From IMG/VR virus record IMGVR_UViG_3300025769_000167, positions 1-52,621 of that record: 52,621 nucleotides of DNA, one strand, 5' to 3'. The notes beneath the pieces were generated by a model. That model saw only the letters and a program-made list of their open reading frames with translations, made no database searches and was not told the DNA's origin. Each line of letters starts with the position of its first letter. Positions within the stretch are counted from its first letter, which is position 1. This document shows, piece after piece, positions 1 through 52,170 of the stretch. Both the position numbers and the translations under genes were made by a program. Source of the DNA: a virus.

Positions 1-34
1 TATAAATTCCATAGGAACGATTATAACAGATTAT

Positions 35-337: not shown

Positions 338-357
338 ATCTCTCCTATGTTAGCATA

Positions 358-2934: not shown

Positions 2935-2958
2935 TCTTCTCCATTATATACTATTTTT

Positions 2959-4881: not shown

Positions 4882-5873
4882 TAACTGTATGCTATCTTAT
4901 TAACAGTTACTGGTTCAGGGTACCTAGCTCTTAAATCCTTTCGTGCTTGTGTTATCAAAGCAGTTTGGTACTGGAGTAAAGAGTTTCTTATTGTTGATGC
5001 AGAGTTAACAGGAAATGTATTTACACTCATTTGGTCTGTTATATAGTCTGCTGTAGCTGTTGGTATATCTCTACCTGATATTAGTTGAGCTGCTACTCCT
5101 GTCATAATAATAGGTTCGTACTCGTCCTCTAAACCTACTGTAGCTAGAGTATCATCTTCTTGTGTAGGAGTTACAAACTTCTTTTTAAATGTAACAAATA
5201 CAGTATGACCTGAAGCAACACTGTAAAACTGAATTGCTTTAACATTATCAGGACCATTGTTACTATAAGTAATTGTTTGAGAGGCACCGTCATCATCTGT
5301 GTATGTAAAAGGATTTGGTAAATCTATTAACTCACATGAAACACCAGAGAATACTGTACCTGTTTCATCTGAGCCTGCAGAAAAGTTTGTGTTTTGTGAT
5401 ATAGATTTAATTGGTGCTATCAAATGATTATCAGTAGAACCACTAAGAGGTACGTAACCTACCTTAGCTACTATTGATTTAGTTTCTACTGCAAATAAAG
5501 TTGGATATAAATTTTTAATCTGGTCACACACTGCATCAAAAACATTCTTACGTGGAAAGACAGGAGAAATTTTAATTACTTTATCTGCAACATGTATAGC
5601 TGCTGTAGTACCTAATACTCCTCTATCAACAGTTACTTTATTGTTTACAGTATCTAAAGATTTACACCTCATTAATTCTTGTTCACACTCAATGATAGTT
5701 CCTGCATCCATTGCATCTTCTTCTTCTTGTGTTAACAAATCTCCATTAAAAATTATTTCAGTTACTGATGCATTAACCTCAGTCTTTAATGTTGTGTAAG
5801 ATTGTAAATCATCCATAGGTTCTAAGTATTCCCTATAGACTCTATTAACTAAGTCACTTATTTTTTGACTCAT
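4881..5873 (-). CDS. Head-to-tail adaptor-like protein, module A (330 aa)
   Basis: Begins with LVNRVYREYLEPMDD and then alternates helices and beta segments: LLTQEEEDAMDAGTIIECE near 45-63, DAVCDQIKNLYPTLFAVET near 115-133 and a C-terminal RKDLRARYPEP. Position between capsid-associated genes and the propeller-like tail protein, plus size, fits a podovirus adaptor / tail tubular A role or a tail-completion protein. This is inferred from gene order, not from a recognised motif. TAATG couples it to both neighbours. The module B copy is 334 aa, with most differences in the middle domain. Confidence 0.5.
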   Translation of the reverse strand: MSQKISDLVNRVYREYLEPMDDLQSYTTLKTEVNASVTEIIFNGDLLTQEEEDAMDAGTIIECEQELMRCKSLDTVNNKVTVDRGVLGTTAAIHVADKVIKISPVFPRKNVFDAVCDQIKNLYPTLFAVETKSIVAKVGYVPLSGSTDNHLIAPIKSISQNTNFSAGSDETGTVFSGVSCELIDLPNPFTYTDDDGASQTITYSNNGPDNVKAIQFYSVASGHTVFVTFKKKFVTPTQEDDTLATVGLEDEYEPIIMTGVAAQLISGRDIPTATADYITDQMSVNTFPVNSASTIRNSLLQYQTALITQARKDLRARYPEPVTVNKIAYS

Positions 5874-6058
5874 TACGCTGCTCCTTCTTCAACTAATGAT
5901 GTAGCAAAGATTGCTTGACCAAAGCTACCTAATGCAAACCATCCATCATTGGCTGTATTGTTTGGATTAACAATAGGGAACGAAGGTTCTAATGGTTGGT
6001 CAGGAATACTTTCTATATTAAGATTTCTTCCCTCTTTTAATATTAAGAGCATACTCAT
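5873..6058 (-). CDS. Small conserved structural-module protein, module A (61 aa)
   Basis: Unrecognised 61-residue protein. The N-terminus MSMLLILKEGR is identical in the module B copy (48698-48892), and both have a C-terminal LGSFGQAIFA / MAMFGQSHFA segment; the middle is free to vary. The start has AGGAGATACTT upstream. It sits between the capsid-associated 109-aa gene and the adaptor candidate in both modules, so a minor virion or assembly role is likely but unproven. Confidence 0.6.
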   Translation of the reverse strand: MSMLLILKEGRNLNIESIPDQPLEPSFPIVNPNNTANDGWFALGSFGQAIFATSLVEEGAA

Positions 6059-6067
6059 AAGTATCTC

Positions 6068-6397
6068 CTAACTGTGTCTAAAGTGTAATACTATTTCTCT
6101 ATCTGCTGCTTCGGTACCATTAGATGTAACTCTAATGTATCCATTGCTAGCAAAAGCCCAGCCACTAGGGTCTACTCTTACTACATCTCCTGCTGAAACA
6201 GTGTAACTTACTTCAGTACCATCTGTTTCTTTTACGTCTAACCATGTAGTATTGTCCATTGAAAAATCAAATGTGATTGCAGAACCTGTCATAGCTGCAG
6301 GAAACTGTACACCACAGAGAAGCATTCCATCTGTTTGTACACCTAAGCTGTCATTGTTATCTGCTGAAACATCTATTAAAGCTAATTTACTTATCAT
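6068..6397 (-). CDS. Capsid-associated beta-rich protein, possible decoration protein, module A (109 aa)
   Basis: A compact all-beta protein directly after the capsid gene. It has SAITFDFSMDNTTWLDVKET near 39-58, VSAGDVVRVDPSGW near 67-80 and ends IVLHFRHS. Small beta proteins just downstream of a capsid gene are often capsid decoration or cement proteins, which is the reason for this guess. The paralogue at 48901-49233 is about 90 percent identical. Separation from the capsid gene by a conserved hairpin suggests a different expression level. Confidence 0.55.
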   Translation of the reverse strand: MISKLALIDVSADNNDSLGVQTDGMLLCGVQFPAAMTGSAITFDFSMDNTTWLDVKETDGTEVSYTVSAGDVVRVDPSGWAFASNGYIRVTSNGTEAADREIVLHFRHS

Positions 6398-6422
6398 ATC
6401 TTCCTTACTATAGCAGAAGAAA

Positions 6423-6446
6423 AGAGTGGAGGTGGAGTTCCACTCT
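6423..6446 (-). terminator. Hairpin after capsid gene, module A
   Basis: Eight-pair stem with an 8-nt loop between the capsid stop and the 109-aa start, read on the minus strand, followed by a short T run (TTTTC). The same loop occurs in module B at 49259-49282, with one paired position changed A-U to G-C and another changed A-U to G-U. These changes preserve pairing only in the minus-strand transcript. Likely a partial terminator or 3'-end stabiliser that sets capsid mRNA above downstream mRNA. Confidence 0.65.
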
Positions 6447-6462
6447 AATCTTCAATATTAAA

Positions 6463-7587
6463 TTATGCTACTGACTGAATCTTGCAGTGATATGAAGGAG
6501 GTCCGAACTCGAATCCCATCTCCATATAAATTGCTTTACCAATTCTAGCGTTGGCATCTTGGTCTATGTCACGAACAAACATTGTTCCATATCCTGGGAT
6601 ATTTGTAAACACTGTTTGAATGTAAGCTAAGTCCAAGATAAAAGCAGAACCTGCAGGCATGATATCAGGGTCAATAACCATTAGTCCTATTGAACCAAAT
6701 GGTGTAATGATTGTATCGATATCGACACCAGCAACATTTCTATCTCTAGGAATAATTGTTCCTGCTATGTCAACTGTACCTTTAACAAGTTCATTGTTAA
6801 GGTCTAGTAATTGCTTTGGACTCACGCAGAGTACTGGTTGAGACATTGGTGCATGGTTGTCATACATTCTCTTTAAAGCACCTGAAATGGTTTTAAAGGA
6901 TATGACTTGTGATGCTCCAGTTCCGTCACCATCTACGTCATTGTAGTAACAGTTACCACCTAATGGGTTAACTGCTGCAGCATTGTTGGCGTTCTTGTTT
7001 ATGGTAATCCATACATCAAGACCATACATTTCTCTAGTTCCTGAACCAGGTGATGTGTTTGCACCATCTGAGAAAGAACCATTGAATGCAAACCACTCAA
7101 CTTCTCTTGCTACTTTTTCCATTGCTTTTTCCATTTGGAAAGCAAATTCGTCTGCCACTGGGCTACCACCAAAAAGAGCCAATTTATCACCAGCTGTGTT
7201 GCCACCTGTTCCATTGGAAAAGTTTGCAGCGTTTGCTGATAGGTCGAAAGGATTTTGGTTTTGGGTAGATGCCAAAGCGGTATATGTCATTTGTACACCC
7301 TTGTGGAAAATCTGAGTTACATATGTGTATGCAGCTCTATCTCTTCCAAGATATTCTGTTGGTGCATTACCTTCTTGTGCCTTAGTTGGTTCTGAAGAAA
7401 CGGTTGCATTATCTTCTACTTGGACTTGCCAAAATGTAGAGTTCAATACTTTACCGCCATTCAAACCACCAACTGCACTAAGCAAAGGTGTTCTTTGACC
7501 ACCGACTTTAAACAATTCACCAGTGAAGTTATTAATCTGTTGGGCATAAATAGGTGCTGTTGCACTTAATCCACTTATACTTGCCAT
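6463..7587 (-). CDS. Major capsid protein, module A (374 aa)
   Basis: Capsid subunit of the HK97 fold. The layout matches the SU10-like / DUF5309 capsid family: an N-terminal YAQQINNFTGELFKVGGQRTP arm, a long helix-rich segment with EKAMEKVAREVEWFAFNGSF near 150-170, and a C-terminal domain with LMVIDPDIMPAG, FILDLAYIQ, GKAIYMEMGFEFGPPSYHCKI. Length is normal for the family. It follows the scaffold gene and is preceded by GGAGAAGATAAC. The module B copy (49299-50417) is close to 88 percent identical by eye and differs mainly in residues 1-10 and in two short loops near 120 and 210. Confidence 0.9.
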   Translation of the reverse strand: MASISGLSATAPIYAQQINNFTGELFKVGGQRTPLLSAVGGLNGGKVLNSTFWQVQVEDNATVSSEPTKAQEGNAPTEYLGRDRAAYTYVTQIFHKGVQMTYTALASTQNQNPFDLSANAANFSNGTGGNTAGDKLALFGGSPVADEFAFQMEKAMEKVAREVEWFAFNGSFSDGANTSPGSGTREMYGLDVWITINKNANNAAAVNPLGGNCYYNDVDGDGTGASQVISFKTISGALKRMYDNHAPMSQPVLCVSPKQLLDLNNELVKGTVDIAGTIIPRDRNVAGVDIDTIITPFGSIGLMVIDPDIMPAGSAFILDLAYIQTVFTNIPGYGTMFVRDIDQDANARIGKAIYMEMGFEFGPPSYHCKIQSVA

Positions 7588-7612
7588 TGTTATCTTCTCC
7601 TATTATAAATTA

Positions 7613-8080
7613 TTACTTGTCTTCTTTAAGAGTTTCCATCATACGCAACTTAGCGTTAATAGAATCTCCTACTTTTGTGTTGGAATCTGTTACAAATTTC
7701 ATAAACTCATCTCCTATGTTTTGTGGATTTGAATTTACACCAAGTTTATTGAGCTGCTCTACACGTGATTGAGCTTCTACTACATTAGAAGTAAGGTTGT
7801 TGCTAGGCTGTTCAGAACTACTAACTTCTCCAAACTCTTGAGCAACAAAGTCTTTGACTCCATCAACAGTAACATCACCTTCATAGAGTTTTACCACAGC
7901 TTTACCTATGCCCTTCTCTGCATTAAGTCCTAATGAACTTAACGCTGAGTTCATAGCATCGGCTTTAAACTGTCTGTTTTCAGCTTTAAGCTTTTTAAAC
8001 TCTTCTCTAAGTTGTTTGATATTATCTGTTGGTTCGTCCACTATTGTAGTTTCCTCAACTTGTTCTGTATTTTTTTCCAT
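7613..8080 (-). CDS. Capsid scaffold / assembly protein, module A (155 aa)
   Basis: Acidic coiled-coil protein directly upstream of the capsid gene. The coil IKQLREEFKKLKAENRQFKAD covers about residues 20-40, and the C-terminus SINAKLRMMETLK is conserved in the module B copy, as expected for the capsid-binding end of a scaffold. The reading frame stays open upstream to 8176, but the ATG at 8080 is chosen because GATGGAG lies 7-8 nt before it, the module B gene has the matching start, and the upstream part is the conserved untranslated leader. Confidence 0.8.
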   Translation of the reverse strand: MEKNTEQVEETTIVDEPTDNIKQLREEFKKLKAENRQFKADAMNSALSSLGLNAEKGIGKAVVKLYEGDVTVDGVKDFVAQEFGEVSSSEQPSNNLTSNVVEAQSRVEQLNKLGVNSNPQNIGDEFMKFVTDSNTKVGDSINAKLRMMETLKEDK

Positions 8081-8174
8081 ATTTTTTCTCCATCTTTTCT
8101 CTAGCATATTAAATTCCATAACATTAATCGCTAGGTAATTAAAAGGAATTTTCACAAGGGTTTGCGAATAACAC

Positions 8175-8197
8175 ATAACGCACCTCGGCAGCGTTAT
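8175..8197 (-). promoter_or_regulatory. Capsid-operon leader hairpin, module A
   Basis: In the minus-strand leader of the scaffold-capsid transcript, ATAACGC and GCGTTAT form a perfect 7-pair stem around the 9-nt loop TGCCGAGGT. The matching module B hairpin (51007-51029) has one compensatory G-C to A-U change and two changes to G-U pairs; all seven pairs remain possible on the minus strand only. Flanking CGAT and a downstream ACCTTGTGAAA-like stretch are also conserved. It may control translation or stability, or be an RNA-protein binding site. Confidence 0.65.
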
Positions 8198-8246
8198 CGA
8201 ATTGTGTGTGACCCTATTCTAAGCGGAACTCACCACGCTACTATAT

Positions 8247-8274
8247 ATAGTACTACTCTTTAATACTCTGTCAA
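8247..8274 (-). promoter_or_regulatory. Scaffold-capsid promoter, module A
   Basis: Minus-strand TTGACA (8274-8269), 16-nt spacer, TACTAT (8252-8247). The -35 box lies inside the last codons of the 370-aa gene (Leu-Thr of GLTEY). Module B has TTGACAGAG in the same codons. This would give the scaffold and capsid genes their own strong transcript with a leader of about 160 nt. Confidence 0.6.
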
Positions 8275-9372
8275 GCCTATAACAGAACCTGTTTGTGACC
8301 TAGCTGCACCAGATTGTACAGAGCTACCAGATAAATTCTGTGCTGTAACGTTTTGTATTTCAGAAGCTATAGCTTCATTACCAAATATCTGTGCTTCTAA
8401 TACACCCATAGCCTTACCTAGTGTTACATCTCTACGTTGTCTTCTCTGCATACGAGCCAAAGCTTTAGCTGTAGTTGATGCTGTAGCAAAAGTCTTTTCT
8501 GATTGTTGTGTAGTCACACCTGCACCAGTAAGTCTTTGTACTGACTCTAAGTCAAGTGCATCACCTGTAGTTCCTGTGTATACTGCACCTAGCTCTGAAG
8601 CATTAAGCCTACCTTTAAGTACATCTTCACTTATGTTAGGGTCTATAGCTAATGCTAATAAACTTTCTTGTCCCATAGATACAGTAGTGCCTGTCTCATT
8701 TGTAAAATATTCATTGTAAGAATTAATAATAGAATTTTGTAATTCATCATCTACTCTATTAATAACTCTGTCGTGTATTAGCTTTACTCTACCAGCGTAG
8801 CTTTCAGCAGATGTATTGTTAGCTACTGCTCTAGCCCATGCTGATTTACCATTCTGTGAGGCATAACCATTAAGACCATAAGCTGTTAAAGTTGTTAATA
8901 CTTTTTCTAAACCTGATATGTATTCAGATTCACTCATCTTTAATGCACCAGTATTAGGGTCTACAATATTAGCAAACACTCTGCTGTATGCATCTTTACT
9001 ATCTGTACCAAATCTCATCTCTGCTAATGCAAACTCTGCACTACCACCGCTATTGTTATAGCCTGATACATAAGAATCAACTAACGTATTAGCATCTGCA
9101 CCACCATACTTTTGTAACCAAGGTAACAATGTATAAACTTGTGTTCTAGTAGTAGTCTTACCTTCTGTTGTTGTACTAGGTGTACTTGAACTATTATTGG
9201 TTGGTGCAGTTAAAGTTCCACCTTTATAGCCTTCTCTTCCAGGAATATCTCCTGCTAATAAACGTTCCAGTTCATGTCTAGTTTCTTTTCGTGCTATATC
9301 AACAGGACTAAGTTCATCATTAGCTGTTGTACTAAATCTACCGTCTGCTGTATATACTGTAACCTGTGCCAT
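8260..9372 (-). CDS. Internal virion / head protein candidate, module A (370 aa)
   Basis: Unrecognised. Starts MAQVTVYTADGRFSTTAND, then a Thr/Ser linker (about 60-75, SSSTPSTTTEGKTTT), then a mostly helical body. The paralogue at 51094-52170 (358 aa) shares FALAEMR/FALANMR near 140, LALAIDP (about 240) and a C-terminal GAARSQTGSVIGLTEY / GAKKTQQGAVSGLTEA end, but is much more diverged than the capsid. TAATG couples it to the 472-aa gene. Because it is cotranscribed with the giant proteins, an internal head or ejection protein is plausible; no catalytic motif was seen. Confidence 0.55.
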   Translation of the reverse strand: MAQVTVYTADGRFSTTANDELSPVDIARKETRHELERLLAGDIPGREGYKGGTLTAPTNNSSSTPSTTTEGKTTTRTQVYTLLPWLQKYGGADANTLVDSYVSGYNNSGGSAEFALAEMRFGTDSKDAYSRVFANIVDPNTGALKMSESEYISGLEKVLTTLTAYGLNGYASQNGKSAWARAVANNTSAESYAGRVKLIHDRVINRVDDELQNSIINSYNEYFTNETGTTVSMGQESLLALAIDPNISEDVLKGRLNASELGAVYTGTTGDALDLESVQRLTGAGVTTQQSEKTFATASTTAKALARMQRRQRRDVTLGKAMGVLEAQIFGNEAIASEIQNVTAQNLSGSSVQSGAARSQTGSVIGLTEY

Positions 9373-32113: not shown

Positions 32114-32596
32114 ATGAAACATAATAAAAAACCTTCTGTACCTAAGTTCAAGAGAACTTATGATGCAGTAGAGAAAGCTGTAATACATACAGAGATACCT
32201 GACCTTAATGGTATCAAAGAATATAAATACCCTGTACCTAATGCTATGCCTAAGACTTCAGTATGCAAGTACTGTAGCAAGAACTTAGTTCGTGGCTATA
32301 TATGCAGGGATTGTAGGGAGTTAGAAAACCCTACCATACCAGTCAAAGATACCTCAGGTATCAAGGAAGGTCTGGTATTATTAGCAGAAATTCGTGCTAA
32401 TGAGAGCATGCAACGGCAGGAGGATATGGAGGAGAACGCTACTATATCTATACCTAAGAAAGAAATCACTTATGATACCTGTGGTTTTTGTGGTATGAGT
32501 ATTGGCTTACAAGATAAGCTATATACTATGCTCGTTACTGTTAAGAAAAGAAAACACAAGAAAAGAATTGCAGTATGTTATGACTGTAAGTTCTAA
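32114..32596 (+). CDS. Double zinc-ribbon early protein (160 aa)
   Basis: Two cysteine clusters: CKYCSKNLVRGYICRDC near 50-66 and CGFCGMSIGLQDKLY near 122-136, completed by CYDC near the C-terminus, each consistent with one zinc site. The N-terminus is basic. Similar arrangements bind nucleic acid or act as adaptors, but no specific family was recognised. GAAAGGTG precedes the ATG. It lies between two folded untranslated stretches. Confidence 0.65.
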   Translation: MKHNKKPSVPKFKRTYDAVEKAVIHTEIPDLNGIKEYKYPVPNAMPKTSVCKYCSKNLVRGYICRDCRELENPTIPVKDTSGIKEGLVLLAEIRANESMQRQEDMEENATISIPKKEITYDTCGFCGMSIGLQDKLYTMLVTVKKRKHKKRIAVCYDCKF

Positions 32597-32597
32597 A

Positions 32598-32808
32598 TAG
32601 CTACCATAACAACTTATCCCTACCTGTTCGTTACCCTTTCGTTGCAGGTAGGGGGTAGCTTGTAGTACATGGTTCATAGTCTGTGTACTACGAGCTATCT
32701 GGGGAGATAGTAAGTATCAAACAATACGATACTTGTACGTATGGTGAAGCCCTAGTCCGTAGGAATTATGACGTCCCTGTTTGTAATGACCGAAGGCTAG
32801 GGTTCACC
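32598..32808 (+). ncRNA. Candidate structured RNA (five consecutive stem-loops)
   Basis: A non-coding, locally GC-richer stretch. Stems: AGCTACC (32599-32605)/GGTAGCT (32654-32660) enclosing CCCTACCTG (32618-32626)/CAGGTAGGG (32645-32653), directly stacked; GTAGTACA (32662-32669)/TGTACTAC (32684-32691), extendable to 13 pairs by borrowing AGCT from the first stem; CTATCT/AGATAG (32695-32710); AAGTATC/GATACTT (32712-32734); and GGTGAA-CCCTAG/CTAGGGTTCACC (32743-32755 and 32797-32808) with one bulged G. It matches no ribozyme, tRNA or riboswitch I know. It may be a stand-alone RNA or the leader of the 51-aa gene. Confidence 0.6.
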
Positions 32809-32827: not shown

Positions 32828-32983
32828 ATGGAATGCGATAATTGTAGACAAGATAACTACATTGAGTTAGCAATACATAGCAACGTTAAGAGTAGTGTAC
32901 ACGTAATAGTGCAGTGCTTTACATGTGGTTATCAAACTATCAAGAAACAAAATAGTAAAAGGAGGTTAGATAGTGTCCAGTAA
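32828..32983 (+). CDS. Small zinc-ribbon protein (51 aa)
   Basis: Starts MECDNCRQDNY and continues to VQCFTCGYQT, so two CxxC pairs about 25 residues apart form a classic zinc ribbon; the tail is Lys/Arg-rich. GGAAGGAATAAT precedes the ATG. It begins 20 nt after the folded RNA element and overlaps the next gene by 11 nt. Confidence 0.65.
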   Translation: MECDNCRQDNYIELAIHSNVKSSVHVIVQCFTCGYQTIKKQNSKRRLDSVQ

Positions 32984-34287: not shown

Positions 34288-34739
34288 TGGAAGCACTTAA
34301 AAGCTACGTAGCTATTACGAAAACAATATTGAATTATCTTAATTCATTAGCGATTTCTAATGGTTACAACAGGTCACTCATGGAGTGGCTATTTAATACT
34401 GAAGGTACAGAGGAGATGAAAGCTATTGACGGAAGGTTTCCAATCTTTCTAAAAATGGCTATGCCTCATTACCATATAGAAGGAGTAGTTGCACCCATGC
34501 ACTACAGAACTGTATGGGAATGTGTACTCATAGGAGATGATGATACAGTTAACGAGAGTGCAACTGTTATCGTAGACATACCAGCAGAAGCTTACGAGTT
34601 ACTGCCTGATGTACCTGAGGTACAAAATATTACTGATGATGTCATGTCAGTATGGGAGAATATAAAACAGGAAGAGATGACAGAGAACTTCATTAAGGAA
34701 GTGGAGGAACTGTTGTCTAAAGAAAGCGAGGAAGAATGA
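34287..34739 (+). CDS. Early protein upstream of MoxR ATPase (150 aa)
   Basis: GTG start in TAGTG, stop overlapping the ATPase start as ATGA. Helical N-terminal part, a beta-rich centre (HYRTVWECVLIGDDDTVNES near 72-91) and an acidic helical end. Not recognised. Its position directly before the ATPase makes it a candidate adaptor. Confidence 0.55.
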   Translation: MEALKSYVAITKTILNYLNSLAISNGYNRSLMEWLFNTEGTEEMKAIDGRFPIFLKMAMPHYHIEGVVAPMHYRTVWECVLIGDDDTVNESATVIVDIPAEAYELLPDVPEVQNITDDVMSVWENIKQEEMTENFIKEVEELLSKESEEE

Positions 34740-35437
34740 CAAACGAAAATACAGTATGGTCTTTACTAGAAAAGGTCATACCACATACACCAAGACTATT
34801 GCTCTATGGTATACCTGGTACAGGTAAGTCATATCAAGCAAGTAATCTTAGTGTTAAGAAAGAACAACAAGTATACACTACTACATTGACTCACGATAGT
34901 ACGGCAGCAGAATTGATGGGACACTATGTTCCTACAGATACTGGTAGTTTTGAGTGGATTGATGGCTTAGGTATTAGAGCTTGGCGTGAAGGTGCAAGAT
35001 TAGTTATTAACGAGATAGACCATGCAGGTGCTGACGTAATGACTTTCTTACATGCCTTACTAGATGACCCACAGTTTGCGAAGTTCACACTTCCTAACAA
35101 GGAGAAGGAAACAGTTAGACCAGCTGATGGCTTTCAAGCAATAGCCACTATGAATGGTGTACCTAGTGACCTAGGTGATGCCTTACGTGACAGGTTCCCT
35201 GTAACAATGAAGATTGATACAGTCCACCCTGATGCACTTAATGTACTACCTAAGAACATACGTGCCGTATACAACGACTTTGAACATGATGCGTTCTCTA
35301 TTCGTAGATGGTCAGCGTTTGCTAACCTTATGAGTAGCGGCTTATCTAAAGAGGACAGCGTTCGTGCTGTGTTTCCTAACGAAAGTTCAATGATATTGGA
35401 AGCACTAGCATTACAAGAACATAATGATACGCAATGA
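34736..35437 (+). CDS. MoxR-type AAA+ ATPase (233 aa)
   Basis: Small AAA+ protein that couples ATP hydrolysis to remodelling of a partner. Motifs in order: Walker A GIPGTGKS (25-32), an MGHYVPTDTGSFEWIDG insert (61-77) as in MoxR/CobS proteins, Walker B LVINEID (89-95), sensor 1 ATMNG (137-141), arginine-finger DALRDRF (148-154) and sensor 2 SIRRWS (188-193). Shorter than usual MoxR proteins, with a reduced lid. The next gene, coupled by ATGA, is a VWA protein, the normal genetic partner of MoxR and CobS ATPases. Confidence 0.85.
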   Translation: MTNENTVWSLLEKVIPHTPRLLLYGIPGTGKSYQASNLSVKKEQQVYTTTLTHDSTAAELMGHYVPTDTGSFEWIDGLGIRAWREGARLVINEIDHAGADVMTFLHALLDDPQFAKFTLPNKEKETVRPADGFQAIATMNGVPSDLGDALRDRFPVTMKIDTVHPDALNVLPKNIRAVYNDFEHDAFSIRRWSAFANLMSSGLSKEDSVRAVFPNESSMILEALALQEHNDTQ

Positions 35438-37170
35438 GTGACCTGTTTAGTAAGGAGTTAGGTGCGTTAAACTTACCTACTACTCTTACTAACCTGTCCC
35501 TTATAGGTGACAGAGTTAGGAAACATAAGGTAGTAAGAAAGCATAACCTAACGCCTACTCCTAACAAGAGTGATTTAGTAATAGCTAGTTACCCTTATCT
35601 TAACAAGAAAGAGAGTGCTACTATATCAATCGCTACTGCAATGAAAAAGTATAATCTGTTTGCTAATATGAAGTTCCGTAGCAATGACAAAGTTGCTTTG
35701 CATACGGCACAGTACATGATAGCTCATAGATATGTTGTAAGCGACCAAGGTAAAATACTAAAAGCCATGGCTAATGGTTTAGGTTATAGTGGAAACCACG
35801 CACAAGTTAAGTTAAAAGAAATACTTGAAGCAAGACAACAAGAGGGTGACAACCTTACTGATAACGAGCTGAAGTTCCTTGACTATTGTAGTGTTCACTT
35901 ACCTTACTGTTCAGAAAATCATAACGATAGAATGAGTTCTACTGCTGTTGATATGTTACTAGAAGGTGCAAGTCTTGGAGAGGTAATGAGTTTTCTTGTT
36001 CCTCATACACCTTTCTATATGCACATTAAGAGACAAGAGGTAGTTAGTTACTGTGTTAGTGCATTACGATTGCACTATCCACCTAACTCTAATATACCTG
36101 AACAGTATTTACTTAAAGATGCTAAGCAGTTAACAGATACTGTTTCTCAACTGTTCAATATATGTGCTCATGCTAAGTCATACGTAAGAAGCCTACAACT
36201 TGTAGGAGAATACAAGTGGCATAGTGAATTACAGAGGTACAAAGGACGACCTCTTAGCAAAACACAGTTACGTAGGAGAGTTAATAAGGTAGTAAGAATA
36301 TTAACTCTTAAAGACTTAGACTATTGGGATAGGAAACGGATGTCTAAGTATGGATTTGCTGATAAAGATGGCGACTTAGATACAGAACAATCTATTCAAC
36401 TAGCAAGTGATGAGTATTTAGAAATGCTCCTTAAACAAAGCTTGACTGATGTTGATGATACTGTATTAACATTGCCTGATAATCTTAGCAAAGAGTTAGC
36501 TGATAATATTAAAGACTCAGCACAACAATACCATGACAGAAACCTTATTGATTACGCTATGGACGAAGGTGGTGTTCATGGTGTAGCTAAGATAAAACCA
36601 TTTGTTCCTAATCATAGGATACAAAAAGCAATTAGAGAAATTACTAGACGTAGTAGTGATACAGGTGTAGTGCCTAAGAAAATGTATCGCTTAACTACTG
36701 ATAGAAAAGTATTCAATGTTAAGTCTACTACCCTAGGTGGTAGCTTAATGATTGACTTTAGTGGCTCTATGAGTTGGAATGAACAAGATGTAAGAGAAGT
36801 AATTGACTTACTTCCTGCTGCTAACATAGCAGGTTACACAGGTTATGGTTACAAGAGAGATGACTGTGATGGCATGATAGAAGTAATTGCTAAAGACGGC
36901 AAATTAAATACTAAAGCTATTAGTAATCTCTATGAACATGGGTACAACTCTGTTGATTTAGATGCACTTAAATGGTTAGCTCAACAACCTGAGCCACGTA
37001 TCTGGATTAGTGACCAACAAGTTGTAGGTGTAGGAAGTGATGGTAGTGCTAGAAACTTACCATTAGAACTACGACATGAGATAGCACAGTTCATGATAAA
37101 GAATAATATAATCCCTATCAAGGCTAAAGAACTTGTTAAAAGATTAGCAAAACAATTAGCTAAACGCTAA
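35434..37170 (+). CDS. VWA-domain partner of the MoxR ATPase (578 aa)
   Basis: A helical N-terminal region of about 430 residues, then a C-terminal von Willebrand A domain whose metal-binding motif DFSGSMS starts at Asp441, followed by a helix (VREVIDLLPAANIAGY) and strands (YGYKRDDCDGMIEVIAKD, PRIWISDQQVVGVGSD). The architecture resembles CobT and other VWA partners of MoxR ATPases, which form metal-insertion or protein-remodelling complexes. No cobalamin genes are nearby, so a phage-specific target is more likely. A terminator follows. Confidence 0.8.
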   Translation: MSDLFSKELGALNLPTTLTNLSLIGDRVRKHKVVRKHNLTPTPNKSDLVIASYPYLNKKESATISIATAMKKYNLFANMKFRSNDKVALHTAQYMIAHRYVVSDQGKILKAMANGLGYSGNHAQVKLKEILEARQQEGDNLTDNELKFLDYCSVHLPYCSENHNDRMSSTAVDMLLEGASLGEVMSFLVPHTPFYMHIKRQEVVSYCVSALRLHYPPNSNIPEQYLLKDAKQLTDTVSQLFNICAHAKSYVRSLQLVGEYKWHSELQRYKGRPLSKTQLRRRVNKVVRILTLKDLDYWDRKRMSKYGFADKDGDLDTEQSIQLASDEYLEMLLKQSLTDVDDTVLTLPDNLSKELADNIKDSAQQYHDRNLIDYAMDEGGVHGVAKIKPFVPNHRIQKAIREITRRSSDTGVVPKKMYRLTTDRKVFNVKSTTLGGSLMIDFSGSMSWNEQDVREVIDLLPAANIAGYTGYGYKRDDCDGMIEVIAKDGKLNTKAISNLYEHGYNSVDLDALKWLAQQPEPRIWISDQQVVGVGSDGSARNLPLELRHEIAQFMIKNNIIPIKAKELVKRLAKQLAKR

Positions 37171-44787: not shown

Positions 44788-45747
44788 TTAACTAAAATCT
44801 AATAGTGCATTTATTAATGGTGTTCCTGCATCAAAAAATAAAAAGGTAACTAAATCTACATCATTAGCACCTGTGCTAAGTGTAAGTCCTGCTGCACCTG
44901 CAGTCAGTCCTGTTACATTTCCACCACCATTAACTGTTATTGCATTGATAGCCATAGTTCTTGAACCAGTACCATCTTGTGTTGCTTTCAATGTAAATGA
45001 TGATGTTCCATTTGTAGGCACATTTGTAAAATCTATATCTGTAACAGAGTGTGCTAGTGTAACTGAACCTGTATTACCATTAGCTAAATTTATTGCTAAT
45101 GTTGTTCCAGAAGTAACTGCAACATCTGTTTCTGCATAATCTTTGAGTGACACAGCACTTATCTCTTGGTCAGCACCTGTTACAGCACCTGATAAAGTTA
45201 CAGCACCTAATGTTTTATTTGTTAAAGTAGCTGTTTCTGCATCAACATAGTTTTTAACTGCTGCTGTTGTAGGTATTTTTGTATCACTATCGTTAGATGT
45301 AATAGTTTCACCTTGTGTAATTAAATCTCCTTGATTTATCATAGCAAAATCTACTGCACCTGCAGCTATTGTTGTAGCTACATCTTGTGTAGCTGAAGCT
45401 AGTGTACCTGTAACATCACCTGTCAAAGCTATGTCATTGACTCTGTCATGTATATCTTCAAAATGTTGTTTGACTACTGCGAGTCTAACCTTAGTTCCTG
45501 ATGCGTGTGTTGGGTCAGTACCATGCTTACTATCTAAATCTCTTGTTACTGTAGCAGCGGAGTGGTCTGTACCTGAAGACCATAAAACTACTTCTCTGTT
45601 ACTGTCATTATCAGGGTCTATAACAAAATACGAAGGACTATCTACTCCTGGGTCATCAGCTAAATTCATTGATGTACCACCACTAGCTAACTGTGCAGCT
45701 AAGGTAGTTTCAAAAGCGTTTACTATATTAGATTCTTGTGCTGTCAT
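44788..45747 (-). CDS. Tail fibre protein, module B (319 aa)
   Basis: Counterpart of 1978-2934. The first 200 residues are close to identical, including MTAQESNIVNAFETTLAAQL and NKTLGAVTLSGAVTGADQ; the last 110 are clearly diverged (SVTDIDFTNVPTNGTSSFTL against AVDDLHFTNVPATGVTTFTL) and end differently. This is the usual pattern of a fibre whose tip must fit a different adhesin. The same TATAATGGAGAAGAATG start region is present. Confidence 0.8.
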   Translation of the reverse strand: MTAQESNIVNAFETTLAAQLASGGTSMNLADDPGVDSPSYFVIDPDNDSNREVVLWSSGTDHSAATVTRDLDSKHGTDPTHASGTKVRLAVVKQHFEDIHDRVNDIALTGDVTGTLASATQDVATTIAAGAVDFAMINQGDLITQGETITSNDSDTKIPTTAAVKNYVDAETATLTNKTLGAVTLSGAVTGADQEISAVSLKDYAETDVAVTSGTTLAINLANGNTGSVTLAHSVTDIDFTNVPTNGTSSFTLKATQDGTGSRTMAINAITVNGGGNVTGLTAGAAGLTLSTGANDVDLVTFLFFDAGTPLINALLDFS

Positions 45748-45771
45748 TCTTCTCCATTATATACTATTTTT

Positions 45772-47694
45772 TTATGCAAATCTCATTACTGCAAAACCTT
45801 TTACGCCAGGTATATCGCCTGATGTTACTTGGCTAAAGGTCTCTTGTCTTGTACCTCTGACAGTTAGTATAGCATATTGTGTGACGCTGCCAACATTTGG
45901 ATTACTTTGTATTGGGTATGTAATTTTCTCTACAACACCTCTAACTATTTCTGCAGGGTCATACAACTCTAATGTAACAGCATTACCTTCTTTATTTTTA
46001 AGTGCTTGATATATTGTTTCACCTAAGTTTTTTACCAATAATGGTTTTCTAAATGGTCTTTCTACTCTATCAGAAATGTTTACTGGTATTTGTATCACTA
46101 CAAGTTCAGGTCTTGCTAATGCCCTTACTCTGAATGCTTTAAACTTTGGAGAGTTGACCTGATTAGGAGATTTTAAAACAATTTTTGCTACCACATATCT
46201 TGCTACTCTTGATAACTGCACTGATTCTTCTCCTACTCCTGATAAAGCATTTACTTCTAAATCCCAAGTGCTGTCATTACTATCATTAATAGCTTCGTAT
46301 TTATTTGATAAGTATAATTCTACAGTGTTGCTGTCTGATAATGCTTCTACTTCAATACTTGCTTCAACAAACTGTTTATTTTCTGCAGTAAAAAAATCTG
46401 CAGGAGGTGCTATAAGAAAACCCTCTTGTTCATAAACAGATGTTTGTTTATATACACCATCTGCACTAACTGTAAATAAAAACTTTTCATTTACACTGGC
46501 TATATTATTTACTGTACCTCCTGCACTAGCTTTGTAGTATCTAGCTATACCTGCTGTAGGTAAATAATATCTCCATAAAAAACTTGTACTTCCTGATTCT
46601 TTTATACCTGTGTACACACTGTCTCTAGTAGTAAATAAAGCATTCGGTGAATTATCTATGCCATCAACATCCCATTGTTTTATTAATTGATTGTTAGCAA
46701 GTACATATAAATCATCTGCGACTGTTAAATTTGCACGATACAATCTTCCAATAACTTTACTACCTGTTTGTAATTCTTTAGTACCATAAAAAACTATACC
46801 CTGCGATTCTACAATACAAGTAACTTGTTCTCCTGATATTTCTGTTTGACCTTTTAAAGTTAATGTACCTGTTACATCTTTAAGAGAATATATTCTTCCA
46901 TCTGTTGCTGTAACTAAAACAACAGCACCTGCATCTGCAGCATCTGTGAATGTTTGTCCTGAAGGTAATGTAACAATAGCTGAACCCACAGTTGTCACAC
47001 CATCATACGCATGTAAAGCATTACCTATGCTTACAATTAATTGTCCTTTTACAGAAAATATTTTGTCATATACTGCTGCCGACATTTTTTGTGTTGATGT
47101 ACCACCACTTGTTAAAGTTTCTATTTCACCTGCTGAACCATTGTTAGCTGTTATATAAAGTAAGTCACCATGTGCAGCTAAACCTTTTATCTGATAACCT
47201 GCAGTTAAACCTTCAGTAACTGTACTCCAGTTAGCACCACCATCATCTGACTTGTATAATGTTTCATCATCAGATACATATATCCTTGTACCTACTACTG
47301 CCATGTGATTTACAGCAGAAGATAATGCTTGACCTTTTTCTGTAGTGTGTAGTAACTGTACATTATATCCTTTACCTAAGTCTGTATTAAATACATCTAC
47401 GCTTTCACTATCCCAAAATCTTGTAACATCATTAGGATTGCCATTTGCTTTATGTGCATTATCTAAATTAGAACCACCACTAAAGTCATTCCTAGAATAT
47501 ATACGACCTATGTTTGATGTAAAATCTTCTGGGTTTTGTTTAACATTTAAACCTTGGTCTTGAACATCTGATGATTGTATAGTCATCTCTCTACCAGGAC
47601 CAATAGCACTTCTATATAATTCATTGTCTACACGAAAATCATAACCTTTTCTTTTAGGATTACTTTCTTCTGCTTGTGTCGTTAATCTAGGCAT
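45772..47694 (-). CDS. Tail tube/nozzle-like protein with beta-propeller repeats, module B (640 aa)
   Basis: Same length and layout as 2959-4881. Changes are spread through the propeller region and the last residues (GDIPGVKGFAVMRFA against GNVPGVNGFGIMRFG), while some stretches are nearly unchanged even at the DNA level (47113-47403). Role as for the module A copy: tail nozzle or hub by analogy with T7 gp12. Confidence 0.65.
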   Translation of the reverse strand: MPRLTTQAEESNPKRKGYDFRVDNELYRSAIGPGREMTIQSSDVQDQGLNVKQNPEDFTSNIGRIYSRNDFSGGSNLDNAHKANGNPNDVTRFWDSESVDVFNTDLGKGYNVQLLHTTEKGQALSSAVNHMAVVGTRIYVSDDETLYKSDDGGANWSTVTEGLTAGYQIKGLAAHGDLLYITANNGSAGEIETLTSGGTSTQKMSAAVYDKIFSVKGQLIVSIGNALHAYDGVTTVGSAIVTLPSGQTFTDAADAGAVVLVTATDGRIYSLKDVTGTLTLKGQTEISGEQVTCIVESQGIVFYGTKELQTGSKVIGRLYRANLTVADDLYVLANNQLIKQWDVDGIDNSPNALFTTRDSVYTGIKESGSTSFLWRYYLPTAGIARYYKASAGGTVNNIASVNEKFLFTVSADGVYKQTSVYEQEGFLIAPPADFFTAENKQFVEASIEVEALSDSNTVELYLSNKYEAINDSNDSTWDLEVNALSGVGEESVQLSRVARYVVAKIVLKSPNQVNSPKFKAFRVRALARPELVVIQIPVNISDRVERPFRKPLLVKNLGETIYQALKNKEGNAVTLELYDPAEIVRGVVEKITYPIQSNPNVGSVTQYAILTVRGTRQETFSQVTSGDIPGVKGFAVMRFA

Positions 47695-48698
47695 TAGTAC
47701 ACTATATTGTTAATCGTAACTGGTTCTGGATACCTAGCTCTTAAATCTTTTCTAGCTTGTTGTATTAAAGCTCTTTGATAACTCAATAAAGAGTTTCTTA
47801 TTCTTGTTGCTGAATCAACTGGGAAATTTGATGTAGAAAGTTGGTCAGTTATATAATCAGTTGTTGCAGTAGGAATATCTCTACCACTAAGCATCTGTGC
47901 GGCAACACCAGCCATAATAATAGGCTCGTATTCATCTTCTAATCCTACTGTGGCAAGTGTGTCTGTTTCTGAAGTGGGGTCAATAAATTTCTTTTTGAAT
48001 GTTACAAATGCAGTATGACCTGCTGCTATACCTGAAAATTGTAATGCGTGAACTACATTAGGACCTGTTGTGTAAGTAATTGTTCTTTCTGTAGATGTGT
48101 CATCTGTATAAGTAAAAGGGTTAGGTAGGTCTATTAATTCGACAGCTACTCCTCTAAATACAACATTTGTTGTATCTGAGTTAGCAGAAAAGTCTGTGTA
48201 CTGTGATATAGATTTTATAGGTGCTACTAAATAGTTATTAGTTCCTGGAGCTGAGTAAGAACCTAGTAAAGTAAATCCATCTCCAACAACAACTTCTAAT
48301 GTTTCTGTAGCAAATAAAGTTGGGTATAAGTTTTTAATCTGGTCACACACAGCATCAAATACATTCTTACGAGGAAATGTAGGTGATATTTTAACAACAC
48401 TACCATCTGGGTGTGTTGAAGCTATCGTTCCTCTTACACCTCTAACTACTGTTACTTGATTATTTACTGTATCTAAAGACACACAACGCATGAGTTCTCT
48501 TTCACACTCAATAATAGTTCCTGCATCCATAGCATCTTCTTCTTCTTGTGTCAGTAAATTACCATCAAATGTTATTACTGTATCTGATGCACTTAATTCT
48601 GTACCTTCATTTAATACTGTGTAAGATGTTAAATCATCCATAGGTTCAAGATATTCTCTATAAACTCTATCAACTAATCCTTGTATATTTGTACTCAT
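47694..48698 (-). CDS. Head-to-tail adaptor-like protein, module B (334 aa)
   Basis: Counterpart of 4881-5873. Conserved ends (VYREYLEPMDD and RKDLRARYPEPVT) and the DAVCDQIKNLYPTLFA helix; the central part near 135-215 differs most (YSAPGTNNYLVAPIKS against PLSGSTDNHLIAPIKS). TAATG links it to the tail gene. Confidence 0.5.
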   Translation of the reverse strand: MSTNIQGLVDRVYREYLEPMDDLTSYTVLNEGTELSASDTVITFDGNLLTQEEEDAMDAGTIIECERELMRCVSLDTVNNQVTVVRGVRGTIASTHPDGSVVKISPTFPRKNVFDAVCDQIKNLYPTLFATETLEVVVGDGFTLLGSYSAPGTNNYLVAPIKSISQYTDFSANSDTTNVVFRGVAVELIDLPNPFTYTDDTSTERTITYTTGPNVVHALQFSGIAAGHTAFVTFKKKFIDPTSETDTLATVGLEDEYEPIIMAGVAAQMLSGRDIPTATTDYITDQLSTSNFPVDSATRIRNSLLSYQRALIQQARKDLRARYPEPVTINNIVY

Positions 48699-48892
48699 TA
48701 TGCAACCTTATCTTCTGCATTTATTGCTTTAGCAAAGTGTGATTGTCCAAACATAGCCATACCAAAAGTAGCACTACGTACTTCACTAATAGGTACTGCA
48801 TCTTCTAAAGGATAAGATTCTTGAATAGGTGCAGAACCTTTAGAATCAATATCTAAAAGTCTTCCCTCTTTAAGTATTAAGAGCATACTCAT
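48698..48892 (-). CDS. Small conserved structural-module protein, module B (64 aa)
   Basis: Counterpart of 5873-6058, with identical MSMLLILKEGR and a related MAMFGQSHFAK end, but low similarity between. The poor middle suggests that only the two ends make fixed contacts. Confidence 0.55.
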   Translation of the reverse strand: MSMLLILKEGRLLDIDSKGSAPIQESYPLEDAVPISEVRSATFGMAMFGQSHFAKAINAEDKVA

Positions 48893-48900
48893 TGTTGCTC

Positions 48901-49233
48901 CTAACTATGTCTAAAGTGTAATGTTAAACTTCTATCTGCCGCTTCGTTTCCATTAGATGTAACTCTAATATAACCATTGCTTGCAAAAGCCCAACCTGAT
49001 GGGTCAACTCTTACAATATCTCCTGCTGAAACAGTGTAACTTACTTCAGTACCATCTGTTTCTTTTACATCTACAAATGTGCTGTTATCCATTGAAAAGT
49101 CAAATGTAATTGCAGAACCTGTCATTGCTGCAGGAAACTGAACACCACATAAAAGCATACCTTCAGTTTGTACTCCTAAAGAATTATTATTGTCTGCTGA
49201 AATGTCTATTAAAGCTGTTTTTGATTTAATCAT
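48901..49233 (-). CDS. Capsid-associated beta-rich protein, module B (110 aa)
   Basis: Counterpart of 6068-6397, about 90 percent identical. Changes cluster in STFVDVKET and the final RSLTLHFRHS strand. Possible capsid decoration protein. Confidence 0.55.
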   Translation of the reverse strand: MIKSKTALIDISADNNNSLGVQTEGMLLCGVQFPAAMTGSAITFDFSMDNSTFVDVKETDGTEVSYTVSAGDIVRVDPSGWAFASNGYIRVTSNGNEAADRSLTLHFRHS

Positions 49234-49258
49234 ATCTTCCTTACTATAGCAGAAGATA

Positions 49259-49282
49259 AGGGCGGAGGTGGAGTTCCACCCT
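49259..49282 (-). terminator. Hairpin after capsid gene, module B
   Basis: Counterpart of 6423-6446 with the same 8-nt loop; one pair changed A-U to G-C and one A-U to G-U in the minus-strand RNA, keeping the stem. Confidence 0.65.
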
Positions 49283-49298
49283 AATCTTCAATTATTAT

Positions 49299-50417
49299 TT
49301 AAGCTACTGCTTGAATTTTACAATGGTATGAAGGAGGTCCGAACTCGAATCCCATCTCCATATAAATTGCTTTACCAATTCTAGCGTTTGCATCTTGGTC
49401 AATGTCACGTACGAACACAGTTCCATATCCTGGGATATTTGTGAATACTGGTTGTATGTAAGCTAAGTCTAAGATGAAAGCAGTGCCTGTTGGCATGATA
49501 TCTGGGTCAATAACCATCAATCCGATTGAACCGAATGGTGTAATGACTGTATCAATATCTATACCAGCAACATTTCTATCTCTAGGAATGATTGCTCCTG
49601 CTATATCAACTGTACCTTTAACAAGCTCGTTGTTAAGGTCTAGTAATTGCTTTGGACTAACGCATAGTACAGGTTGCGACATTGGGGCATGGTTGTCATA
49701 CATTCTCTTTAACGCACCTGATATAGTTGCGAAAGAGATGACTTGTGCTGAACCAGTTCCGTCACCTGAAGCGTCATTGTAGAAACAGTTACCGCCTAAT
49801 GGGTTAACTGCTGCAGAGTTGTTGGCGTTCTTGCCAATGGTAATCCAATGGTCAAGACCATACATTTCTCTAGTTCCTGACCCAGGTGTTACGTTAGCAC
49901 CATCTGAGAAAGAACCATTGAATGCAAACCACTCAACTTCTCTTGCTACTTTTTCCATTGCTTTTTCCATCTGAAAAGCAAATTCGTCTGCCACTGGGCT
50001 ACCACCGAACATAGCCAATTTGTCACCAGCTGTCACTGTTCCGTCTCCGTCTGAAGAGTTCGCAATGTCTGCTGATAAATCAAATGGGTTTTGATTTTGG
50101 GTAGATGCCAAAGCGGTATAGGTCATTTGTACACCTTTATGGAAAATTTGAGTTACATATGTGTATGCAGCTCTGTCTCTTCCAAGGTATTCTGTAGGTG
50201 CTGCACCTTCTTGTCCTTTAGTTGGTTCAGATGAAACGGTAGCATTATCTTCTACTTGGACTTGCCAAAATGTAGAGTTTAATGTCTTACCACCGTTTAA
50301 TCCACCAGCTGCGGATAATAAAGGTGTTCTTTGACCACCGACTTTGAACAATTCACCAGCGAAGTTATTAATATTTTGTGCATAAATCGTACTGTTTGTT
50401 AACGATATTGCTGCCAT
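49299..50417 (-). CDS. Major capsid protein, module B (372 aa)
   Basis: Counterpart of 6463-7587, an SU10-like / DUF5309 HK97-fold capsid subunit. Core identical over long stretches (VQVEDNATVSSEPTK, GGSPVADEFAFQMEKAMEKV, GFEFGPPSYHCKIQ). The N-terminus is two residues shorter and the 117-130 loop (SADIANSSDGDGTVTAGD) is rebuilt. Two intact, near-full-length capsid genes in one window are explained most simply by two genome units. Confidence 0.9.
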   Translation of the reverse strand: MAAISLTNSTIYAQNINNFAGELFKVGGQRTPLLSAAGGLNGGKTLNSTFWQVQVEDNATVSSEPTKGQEGAAPTEYLGRDRAAYTYVTQIFHKGVQMTYTALASTQNQNPFDLSADIANSSDGDGTVTAGDKLAMFGGSPVADEFAFQMEKAMEKVAREVEWFAFNGSFSDGANVTPGSGTREMYGLDHWITIGKNANNSAAVNPLGGNCFYNDASGDGTGSAQVISFATISGALKRMYDNHAPMSQPVLCVSPKQLLDLNNELVKGTVDIAGAIIPRDRNVAGIDIDTVITPFGSIGLMVIDPDIMPTGTAFILDLAYIQPVFTNIPGYGTVFVRDIDQDANARIGKAIYMEMGFEFGPPSYHCKIQAVA

Positions 50418-50436
50418 TTTTATCTTCTCCTATAAA

Positions 50437-50916
50437 TTATTTTTTATCTTGTTGTTTAAGAGTCTCCATCATACGCAATTTTGCATTGATAGAATCTCCT
50501 GGTTTTGTATTTGGATTTCTAACAAAATTTACAAATTCTTGACCTACGTCTGTAGGCTCAGCATTTACACCAAGTTTATTTAGCTGCTCTACACGCGATT
50601 GAGCTTCTACTACATTACCTGCTTGTTGAGGTACTGCTGCTGGTTCAGCATTAATAGCATCACCAAACTCATTTTGTACAAAGTCTTTGATAGATGTTAC
50701 ATCCATCTCGCCCTCATATAATTTAGTTACAGCTTTACCAATACCTTTTTCAGGTTCTAGTCCTAATGACTCTAAAGCGCTACCCATAGCCTGAGCCTTG
50801 AATGCTTTGTTCTCAGCTTTGAGTTTTTTAAACTCATCCCTAAGTTGCTTTATATTATCATTAGAATCTTCAGCTTGTTCTGTAGCTGCTTGGTCTAAAT
50901 TGTTTATATCTTCCAT
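50437..50916 (-). CDS. Capsid scaffold / assembly protein, module B (159 aa)
   Basis: Counterpart of 7613-8080. The coil IKQLRDEFKKLKAENKAFKA, the GIGKAVTKLYEG segment and the capsid-proximal SINAKLRMMETLK end are kept, while the region near 80-105 differs (Ala/Pro-rich here). The start at 50916, with GATGGAG before it, matches module A; the frame is open up to 50961 but the extra part is leader. Confidence 0.8.
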   Translation of the reverse strand: MEDINNLDQAATEQAEDSNDNIKQLRDEFKKLKAENKAFKAQAMGSALESLGLEPEKGIGKAVTKLYEGEMDVTSIKDFVQNEFGDAINAEPAAVPQQAGNVVEAQSRVEQLNKLGVNAEPTDVGQEFVNFVRNPNTKPGDSINAKLRMMETLKQQDKK

Positions 50917-51006
50917 TTTTATCTCCATCTTTTCTCTAGCATATAAATAATCCCATAACATAATCGCTAGGTAATTAAAGGGATTTCACAAGGTTTTAAA
51001 AATACA

Positions 51007-51029
51007 GACAACACACCTTGGTAGTGCTA
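51007..51029 (-). promoter_or_regulatory. Capsid-operon leader hairpin, module B
   Basis: ATAGCAC / GTGTTGT stem around the loop TACCAAGGT on the minus strand, including two G-U pairs; counterpart of 8175-8197. A second hairpin, GTGCC/GGCAC, lies upstream near 51055-51075 in this copy only. Confidence 0.6.
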
Positions 51030-51081
51030 TCGAAATGCAGCCCTATTTTTTAAGTGCCGATTCCTGCCAGGCACTACAATT

Positions 51082-51108
51082 AGTATAGCAGATTTATGCC
51101 TCTGTCAA
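51082..51108 (-). promoter_or_regulatory. Scaffold-capsid promoter, module B
   Basis: Minus-strand TTGACA (51108-51103) inside the final Leu-Thr codons of the 358-aa gene, with TATACT at 15 nt or TACTAA at 17 nt spacing. Same placement as in module A. Confidence 0.55.
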
Positions 51109-52170
51109 GCCACTTACTGCACCTTGTTGAGTTTTCTTAGCACCTAGCTGTACAGCACTTTCAGACTCTGCTTGTGCTGCTAATGTAGATACTTGTTCTG
51201 CAAACTGTGTATCAGGTGCTGCACCCATCTCTGCAAACTCTAATGCTGTGTATTCTGTTTTCTCTCTACCGAATCTTCTAGCTAATCTTGAAGCAGTCAT
51301 AGCTCTAGCAGTAGCTGTTTCAAACTCACTAGCTGCTCTTTGTGAAGTAATACCTCCACTAACAAGTCTTTGTACTGCGTCATAATCTATTTCTTCTCCA
51401 CTAACTCTTTCAAACGTTGCACTTATTTGTGAGACGTTTAATCTTTTAGTAAGTATTTGTGCATTAACTTCAGGGTCTATAGCCAAAGCAACTAAAGCTG
51501 ATTCACTCATATCTACAGTCTCTCCTAATTCATCAGAGTAATACTGTGAGTATTGTCCAAGAACTTGTGCTTTCTGTTCTTCAGGTAATGAAGTTATAGT
51601 ATCTGATACTGCTTTAACTCTATTTCTTAACTCATCAGGATTAACATTGTTAGCTAATAATTTAGGAAATATTACATCTAAGTTTTCTTTTGCATATCCA
51701 CCTAAGTTATATTCTTGTAAGTGAATAGCAACAGCTTCTTTATTCTGTAAGTACTGTGCCTCTGTCATTCTAAGACTTCCATCATTTCTTTTTATACCCT
51801 CAAACATTTCGCTGTATTCAACTGTTGAACGCATATTTGCTAGGGCAAACTCTGCTTTACCTGTATCAATAAAACCTTGTGTATAAGAATCTATTAGTTT
51901 CTCTCCACGTACTGGGTCTAACTTTGTGATGTATGGCAATAATACTTTGGCTTGTTCTCTGCTATAAGGAGATAAATCTTCTTCTTTAATTGGTGTAGAA
52001 TCTGTAGTCTCTCCTCCACCTGTAAAGTTTGAGCCACCTGCTGTAGTAGATAAAGCAACAGCTTCTGACTTATCTGTTGTATAGCCATTAGCTAACATGT
52101 CATCTAACTTAAGACCTGTACCTTCTAACTCTATACCTGTTAAATCATCTTTTCTATATACTGTTACCAC
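51094..52170 (-). CDS. Internal virion / head protein candidate, module B (358 aa)
   Basis: Diverged counterpart of 8260-9372: shared FALANMR, LVALAIDPEV, AVQRLVSGGITSQRA and the GLTEA end. GTG start in TAGTG with the preceding stop. Much lower similarity than in the capsid genes shows that this protein evolves faster or was exchanged. Confidence 0.55.
   Translation of the reverse strand: MVTVYRKDDLTGIELEGTGLKLDDMLANGYTTDKSEAVALSTTAGGSNFTGGGETTDSTPIKEEDLSPYSREQAKVLLPYITKLDPVRGEKLIDSYTQGFIDTGKAEFALANMRSTVEYSEMFEGIKRNDGSLRMTEAQYLQNKEAVAIHLQEYNLGGYAKENLDVIFPKLLANNVNPDELRNRVKAVSDTITSLPEEQKAQVLGQYSQYYSDELGETVDMSESALVALAIDPEVNAQILTKRLNVSQISATFERVSGEEIDYDAVQRLVSGGITSQRAASEFETATARAMTASRLARRFGREKTEYTALEFAEMGAAPDTQFAEQVSTLAAQAESESAVQLGAKKTQQGAVSGLTEA

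Follow-up and report, generated by a model that had tools for sequence, protein, structure and literature searches.

Background

GOLLD, a giant and ornate RNA of phages and prophages, combines a conserved 3' region with a less conserved 5' region and has a linker into which elements such as tRNAs can be inserted (PMC12286853). Its architecture is the closest to that of the RNA described here, though the Rfam match fails. The resemblance, one of architecture and not of identity, lies in a phage-encoded, long and very structured RNA with a conserved 3' and a variable 5' region. GOLLD is, however, longer than 800 nt, whereas the units found here measure 214-640 nt and are composed of repeated hairpin cassettes with shared arms. 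A second phage-encoded structured RNA, ROOL, contains pseudoknots and has no known partner (PMC12286853). The family studied here is likewise phage-encoded and includes pseudoknots, but it is modular and variable where ROOL has one fixed fold, and it has no Rfam match. A trait of both GOLLD and ROOL is assembly into RNA-only oligomeric cages. The Rfam models of GOLLD and ROOL were unmatched in the window (the whole stretch of DNA analysed, 52,621 nt), in 13 array loci at the gathering threshold and in 14 loci at E-values up to 1-2. Unlike in GOLLD and ROOL, scans of the window and of eight loci with ARAGORN and Rfam yielded no tRNA (and no tmRNA).

The manA, wcaG and other marine cyanophage motifs were found by comparative genomics and are proposed cis regulators (PMC2864571). 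The present RNA is also a structured motif of marine phages that was found comparatively; it differs from these proposed cis regulators in that the window has no Rfam match. Mobile regulatory cassettes of T4-type phages (PeSL), reportedly described by Arbiol et al. in 2010, are intergenic stem-loops linked to modular genome shuffling. Repeated intergenic stem-loops are found here as well, but their loops are large structured domains, the array occupies mostly one locus per genome and there is one promoter-like motif per whole array.

With this work, marine phages gain a large and widespread class of structured RNA without a counterpart in Rfam or the literature searched. The part of the literature that was covered contains no description of the element, though one may exist elsewhere. 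The RNA domains of this class are traded between genomes as modules in a defined socket, comparable to protein domains or gene cassettes.

Sequences and alignments

The window corresponds to positions 1-52,621 of IMG/VR record IMGVR_UViG_3300025769_000167. All sequences compared are metagenomic contigs, given below by L numbers. Relatives, both close and distant, were found by scanning IMG/VR with the neighbouring proteins, including the 51-aa protein encoded downstream of the element. Stems P3-P5 of ten relatives, with the window left out, were aligned (A6) as the basis of covariance model R2. A6 was chosen because MAFFT misaligned P5 in alignment A3.

The element in the window

The element lies between two cysteine-rich genes and comprises the following features.

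32114-32596, + strand: upstream gene, 160 aa, cysteine-rich (CxxC motifs), syntenic in L025
32598-32808, + strand: entire structured RNA element, intercistronic; the preceding stop codon ends at 32596 and the following ATG is at 32828
32600-32659, + strand: P1, linker-type hairpin; outer arm A (GCTACC) with B (GGTAGC) around an inner hairpin at 32618-32653, from the fold
32600-32605/32654-32659 and, inner, 32618-32627/32644-32653, + strand: P1 helices, MFE fold
32654-32699, + strand: P2 cassette with L arm GGTAGCTTGTAGTACA, short interior and R arm TGTACTACGAGCTATC, a unit recurring across phages
32656-32659, + strand: UAGC toggle, common to P1 (register II) and P2 (register I), overlapping AGCT at 32657-32660
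32660-32672/32681-32693, + strand: P2 helix in the MFE fold, 13 pairs
32694-32711, + strand: P3 hairpin, GCTATC-TGGGGA-GATAGT, helix 32694-32700/32705-32711
32712-32734, + strand: P4 hairpin, helix 32712-32718/32728-32734, followed by conserved CTTGTACG
32743-32808, + strand: P5, the 3' core; outer stem, GUARGA, inner stem, CCCUGUU loop, CCGAA, outer stem
32743-32748/32803-32808 (GGTGAA/TTCACC), CCCTAG/CTAGGG and inner stem, + strand: P5 helices, MFE fold
32775-32781, + strand: conserved apical motif CCCTGTT, within P5
32828-32983, + strand: downstream gene, 51 aa, cysteine-rich; query for relatives

The stems proposed in the initial annotation are present. The region 32598-32808 folds with an MFE of -80.9 kcal/mol, whereas dinucleotide shuffles average -57.05 (sd 4.4; z -5.42) and 0 of 200 fold as well. 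No non-overlapping 211-nt tile on either strand of the whole record has as low an energy (runner-up -71.8). The GC content, described as higher than in the surroundings, is 45% versus 36% in the flanks, and 1.1% of windows attain 45%. The region had also been described as free of reading frames. A 47-aa GTG frame does cross it; this frame is broken by a 1-nt insertion in L010 and by large insertions in L005 and L028, and a coding reading of the element was rejected. The last stem, GGTGAA/TTCACC, indeed precedes the ribosome site: P5 stops short of that site and leaves it uncovered, 19 nt separating the element from the downstream ATG. The 160-aa upstream protein gave no match in a family search.

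Conservation in relatives

In L025, whose upstream protein is 53% identical, the same genes flank approximately 300 nt folding at z -5.8. The layout of P1 recurs with other sequence in L025, L035 and L037, and in P3 the loop UGRGGA is conserved, with C-G/G-C/A-U covariation in the relatives. Across A6, 95.9% of the cells are in standard pairs and 13 of the 39 pairs are changed on both sides. Double-change cells number 46 versus 15.1 in shuffles, with a covariation score of 0.349 versus 0.153; as the sequences are related, the shuffle counts overstate independence, here and in the payload families below. When the pairing partners were slid by 1-3 columns, the signal collapsed. R2, built from relatives alone, matches the window at 32694-32808 with 72.6 bits (E 8e-15), and a scan of the whole record gave no second match above E 0.3. 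From the covariation in A6 and the R2 match, we therefore conclude that the element is a conserved RNA structure.

A covariance-model search had been proposed as a check in the initial annotation, and stems broken without compensation had been named as the refuting result; the latter were searched for in the relatives and none were found. The claim that the element resembles no known family likewise holds: Rfam, at the gathering threshold and at relaxed E-values, gave no credible match, stray microRNA and sRNA scores lying far below gathering. A new structured phage RNA is thus strongly supported by the negative Rfam result and by helices kept through double changes in relatives. No credible DNA match was found in isolated phages and plasmids, and neither the cassette arm nor the 51-aa gene was matched in bacterial genomes. 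The terminase of the window shares 56% identity with those of L231 and L178, and these three therefore belong to one phage lineage. An affinity with Streptomyces phages (terminase, 24% identity) was discarded as too weak for naming a host.

The 3' core consists of an outer stem, GUARGA, an inner stem, CCCUGUU, the inner stem, CYGAA and the outer stem, and was found in 44 distinct copies. Its outer stem has a mean of 11.2 pairs versus 6.0 (sd 0.46) when the 3' strands are permuted between the 44 copies. R2 finds the core in the arrays of other phages as well (L182, L183, L191, L178 and others, E 6e-6 to 1e-4). The AGUA facing GAA in the core resembles a loop-E motif. Pairing of GTA(R)GA with (Y)GAA is A-C in 7 of the 44 copies, and is therefore not claimed.

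Hairpin cassettes and exchange of their interiors

Beyond the reach of the initial annotation, the window RNA proves to be a single member of a modular family. The P2 stem belongs to a hairpin cassette with arms TAGCTTGTAGCACATA/TGTGTGTTACAAGCTA that is present in more than 100 marine phage contigs. More than 100 IMG/VR contigs contain its L arm TAGCTTGTARYACATA, in at least 120 stretches, and behind most copies lies the complementary R arm; the reversed arm pattern gave almost no matches. In 139 cassettes, oriented by their wobble pairs, the arms contain 146 G.U and 0 A.C pairs, and one strand is therefore consistently RNA-like. Each record has 1-5 cassettes, mostly at one locus. Based on a rough gene call, they are mostly intergenic and tend to be co-directional with the genes. 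The cassette stems measure about 21 bp, flanks included.

Close relatives hold different interiors at one and the same site. With flanks approximately 97% identical, an insertion of about 105 nt stands in place of the P2 loop in L005, L004, L008 and L022, and in L006/L028 (flank also ~97% identical) the P2 stem is duplicated with a spacer, a tandem duplication. The interiors, or payloads, cluster into about 75 families at thresholds set by hand. A given interior can have different flanks, and can also be placed in the order R arm, interior, L arm instead of L arm, interior, R arm. Some sequences serve both as interior and as linker, and identical interiors are found inside unrelated stems (e.g. 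fam0 in TAGCTTGTAGCACATA/TGTGTTACAAGCTA and in TAGCTTGAAGGATA/ATCTTTCAAGCTA). As a separate observation, AAATATCTACAACTACAA is found repeatedly in loops of hairpins that differ in other respects, both in P2 interiors and in linkers (e.g. in the L025 and L063 arrays).

Two payload families were analysed for structure of their own. In fam0 (13 distinct sequences), 98.2% of the cells pair and 12 of 21 pairs have double changes, and 0 of 500 shuffles reach either value. In fam3 (12 sequences), 94.6% of the cells pair and double changes affect 20 of 31 pairs (0 of 500 shuffles). A crossing helix in fam3 forms a predicted pseudoknot, with one covarying pair, in three sequences, in the crossing helix itself. 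An extra 3-bp pseudoknot in fam0 was unsupported by changes and omitted. On these sequence comparisons, the fam0 and fam3 interiors are structured RNA domains above a generic stem. Change of whole stems is hard to explain other than by conserved structure, though kinship inflates the counts.

The exchange of interiors could instead be the main event. The arms would then be sites of homologous recombination, comparable to the mobile regulatory cassettes of T4-type phages, and the RNA structure a by-product of inverted repeats. Interiors do swap between identical arms, L028 carries the tandem duplication, and some interiors recur as linkers. However, the wobble pairs point to one strand, covarying helices and a pseudoknot belong to the payloads themselves, payloads move between unrelated stems, and a promoter-like motif and terminator are present (see below). 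Recombination is likely real, yet it leaves the strand bias, the payload covariation, the moves between unrelated stems and the transcription signals unexplained, and we regard it as an unlikely explanation of the element as a whole.

Some payloads have loops resembling those of tRNAs. The fam0 interior (e.g. L050 4581-4667; L121 5121-5207, - strand) has a covarying 5-bp stem and a conserved 7-nt loop, YTCATWA. By analogy with the anticodon loop of CAU-tRNA, which it resembles, this loop could act as a decoy for nucleases cutting tRNA-Met. Several interiors have at their end a 5-bp hairpin whose 7-nt loop (TTGAACT, TTGGAAT or TTCAAAT) is T-arm-like, the one in L124 being canonical, GGTTCAAATCC.

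L005 3826-3945, L146 3899, L124 3229, L069 1302 and L191 1331: T-arm-like hairpins

A general surplus of tRNA-like 7-nt loops in the payloads was considered and rejected as weak (16 versus 11), and the tRNA-like loops in the two payload families may be a coincidence.

Putative transcription units

In several phages, the array starts shortly 3' of a promoter-like motif, GACAACATATAATTACA, and the outer stem of the core is followed by U5-9. Scanning IMG/VR with GACAACATATAATTACA alone returned 34 contigs, and in 27 of them the array lies behind the motif. Among previously unseen GACAACATATAATTACA contigs, 19 of 26 have the array, while the other 7 match inside unrelated sequence; because of common descent, the 19 arrays do not represent 19 independent events. 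Seventeen distinct units from motif to U-run were delimited, 214-640 nt in length, with fold z-scores from -2.4 to -9.3. In many relatives, the array would be its own transcription unit, with the promoter-like motif in front and the core plus U-run as putative terminator. Neither an GACAACATATAATTACA-like motif nor a U-run was found for the window copy, which is therefore probably part of an operon transcript, and may later be released from it or left in place.

Such operon-borne hairpins could be intercistronic processing or stability elements, as are substrates of the RNase III type, without a role in trans. The length of the cassette stems (~21 bp with flanks) and their intergenic, co-directional position in the window and many contigs agree with this. 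On the other hand, interiors of processing hairpins would need neither conserved sequence nor pseudoknots, and relatives have putative transcription units separate from the operons. We consider this explanation quite unlikely.

Two pairing registers

The AGCT at 32657-32660, positioned as claimed in the initial annotation, had been read as pairing either in P1 or in an extended P2 of 13 pairs. The alternative is real, and the extended P2 has 19 pairs (32654-32672/32681-32699, centroid fold) rather than 13. The competition between P1 and P2 exists too, but P3 is also involved, with GCTA (32694) at the 3' end of P2 being common to P3. Four arms, A (GCUA, 32600), B (UAGC, 32656), C (GCUA, 32694) and D (UAGU, 32708), can pair either as A:B plus C:D or as B:C. 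With these pairs enforced, the ensemble energies in the window are -86.54 and -86.65 kcal/mol, respectively, a gap of 0.1. The same four arms are present in L025, L040, L035 and L037, where the stem sequences are quite different and the gaps between registers amount to 0.8, 0.8, 1.7 and 4.5 kcal/mol. The relatives' register I also allows pairing of A with D, in the fashion of a four-way junction. Judged by these calculated energies, two mutually exclusive conformations are real and conserved as a possibility. Both registers are possible because neighbouring hairpins have UAGC/GCUA arms in common, and these shared arms stem from the general design of the array.

The two states had been likened to a switch. 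They are mutually exclusive and retained in relatives; regulatory switching is unsupported. A cis-acting leader or riboswitch would toggle between the P1/P3 and extended-P2 registers and thereby control the 51-aa gene downstream. The small energy gaps (0.1 kcal/mol in the window, 0.8-4.5 in relatives) and the ATG 19 nt downstream favour such a reading. A riboswitch would be expected to combine one class of downstream gene with an expression platform; here the gene that follows is not constant (L034 has an inserted gene, and the array lies elsewhere in L050, L135 and L231), and neither register covers the ribosome site. Elsewhere among the phages, the core itself appears to be the terminator closing a separate unit. 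Payloads change freely, whereas an aptamer would be conserved, and there is no ligand or readout in sight. We therefore judge a riboswitch very unlikely.

Proposed function

The reading we favour, and consider somewhat probable, is that the window RNA belongs to a new modular family of phage noncoding RNAs with swappable, trans-acting domains. By the sequence data, an array consists of a variable number of hairpins followed by the conserved 3' core, and the UAGC/GCUA ends let arms pair within a cassette or across the linker. The cassette interiors are structured RNA domains traded between phages. The RNA would be expressed during infection and may act in trans: the core would bind a common partner or drive assembly, and the swappable domains would present decoys or ligands to host molecules. 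Since such molecules differ from host to host, rapid exchange of the domains would be accounted for. If the domains act in trans, the approximately 75 families would form a catalogue of RNAs for which host tRNAs, ribosomes and defence proteins are candidate targets.

A more specific version of this noncoding RNA family is offered tentatively, and we hold it to be rather doubtful. It would be a phage-borne, integron-like repertoire of RNA domains, in which a noncoding RNA driven by a promoter keeps its 3' core and stem socket constant and receives dozens of different structured domains by exchange between phages, selected by host targets that vary, for instance tRNA-cleaving or RNA-sensing defences.

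Other features of the record and its relatives

Another repeated intergenic cassette, AATTAACCCCTTAATTTATTAAGGGGATTAATTAATTAGATTGGAG, lies before several genes in L041-L062, 5' of the 51-aa gene (e.g. in L046, L051 and L059). Made up of a terminator-like hairpin and a ribosome site behind it, this cassette has the appearance of a mobile regulatory unit. In the window, 44788-52170 repeats the structural gene order of 1-9372, with a 640-aa protein that is 87% identical between the two sets. The record of 52.6 kb (relatives 42-45 kb) may be a genome joined with a fragment of a related phage, or contain a duplicated block. At 34736-37170, an AAA ATPase (Pfam AAA_5) adjoins a 578-aa protein with a DFSGSMS motif; the two are kept in relatives and are possibly a MoxR/CobS-vWA pair.
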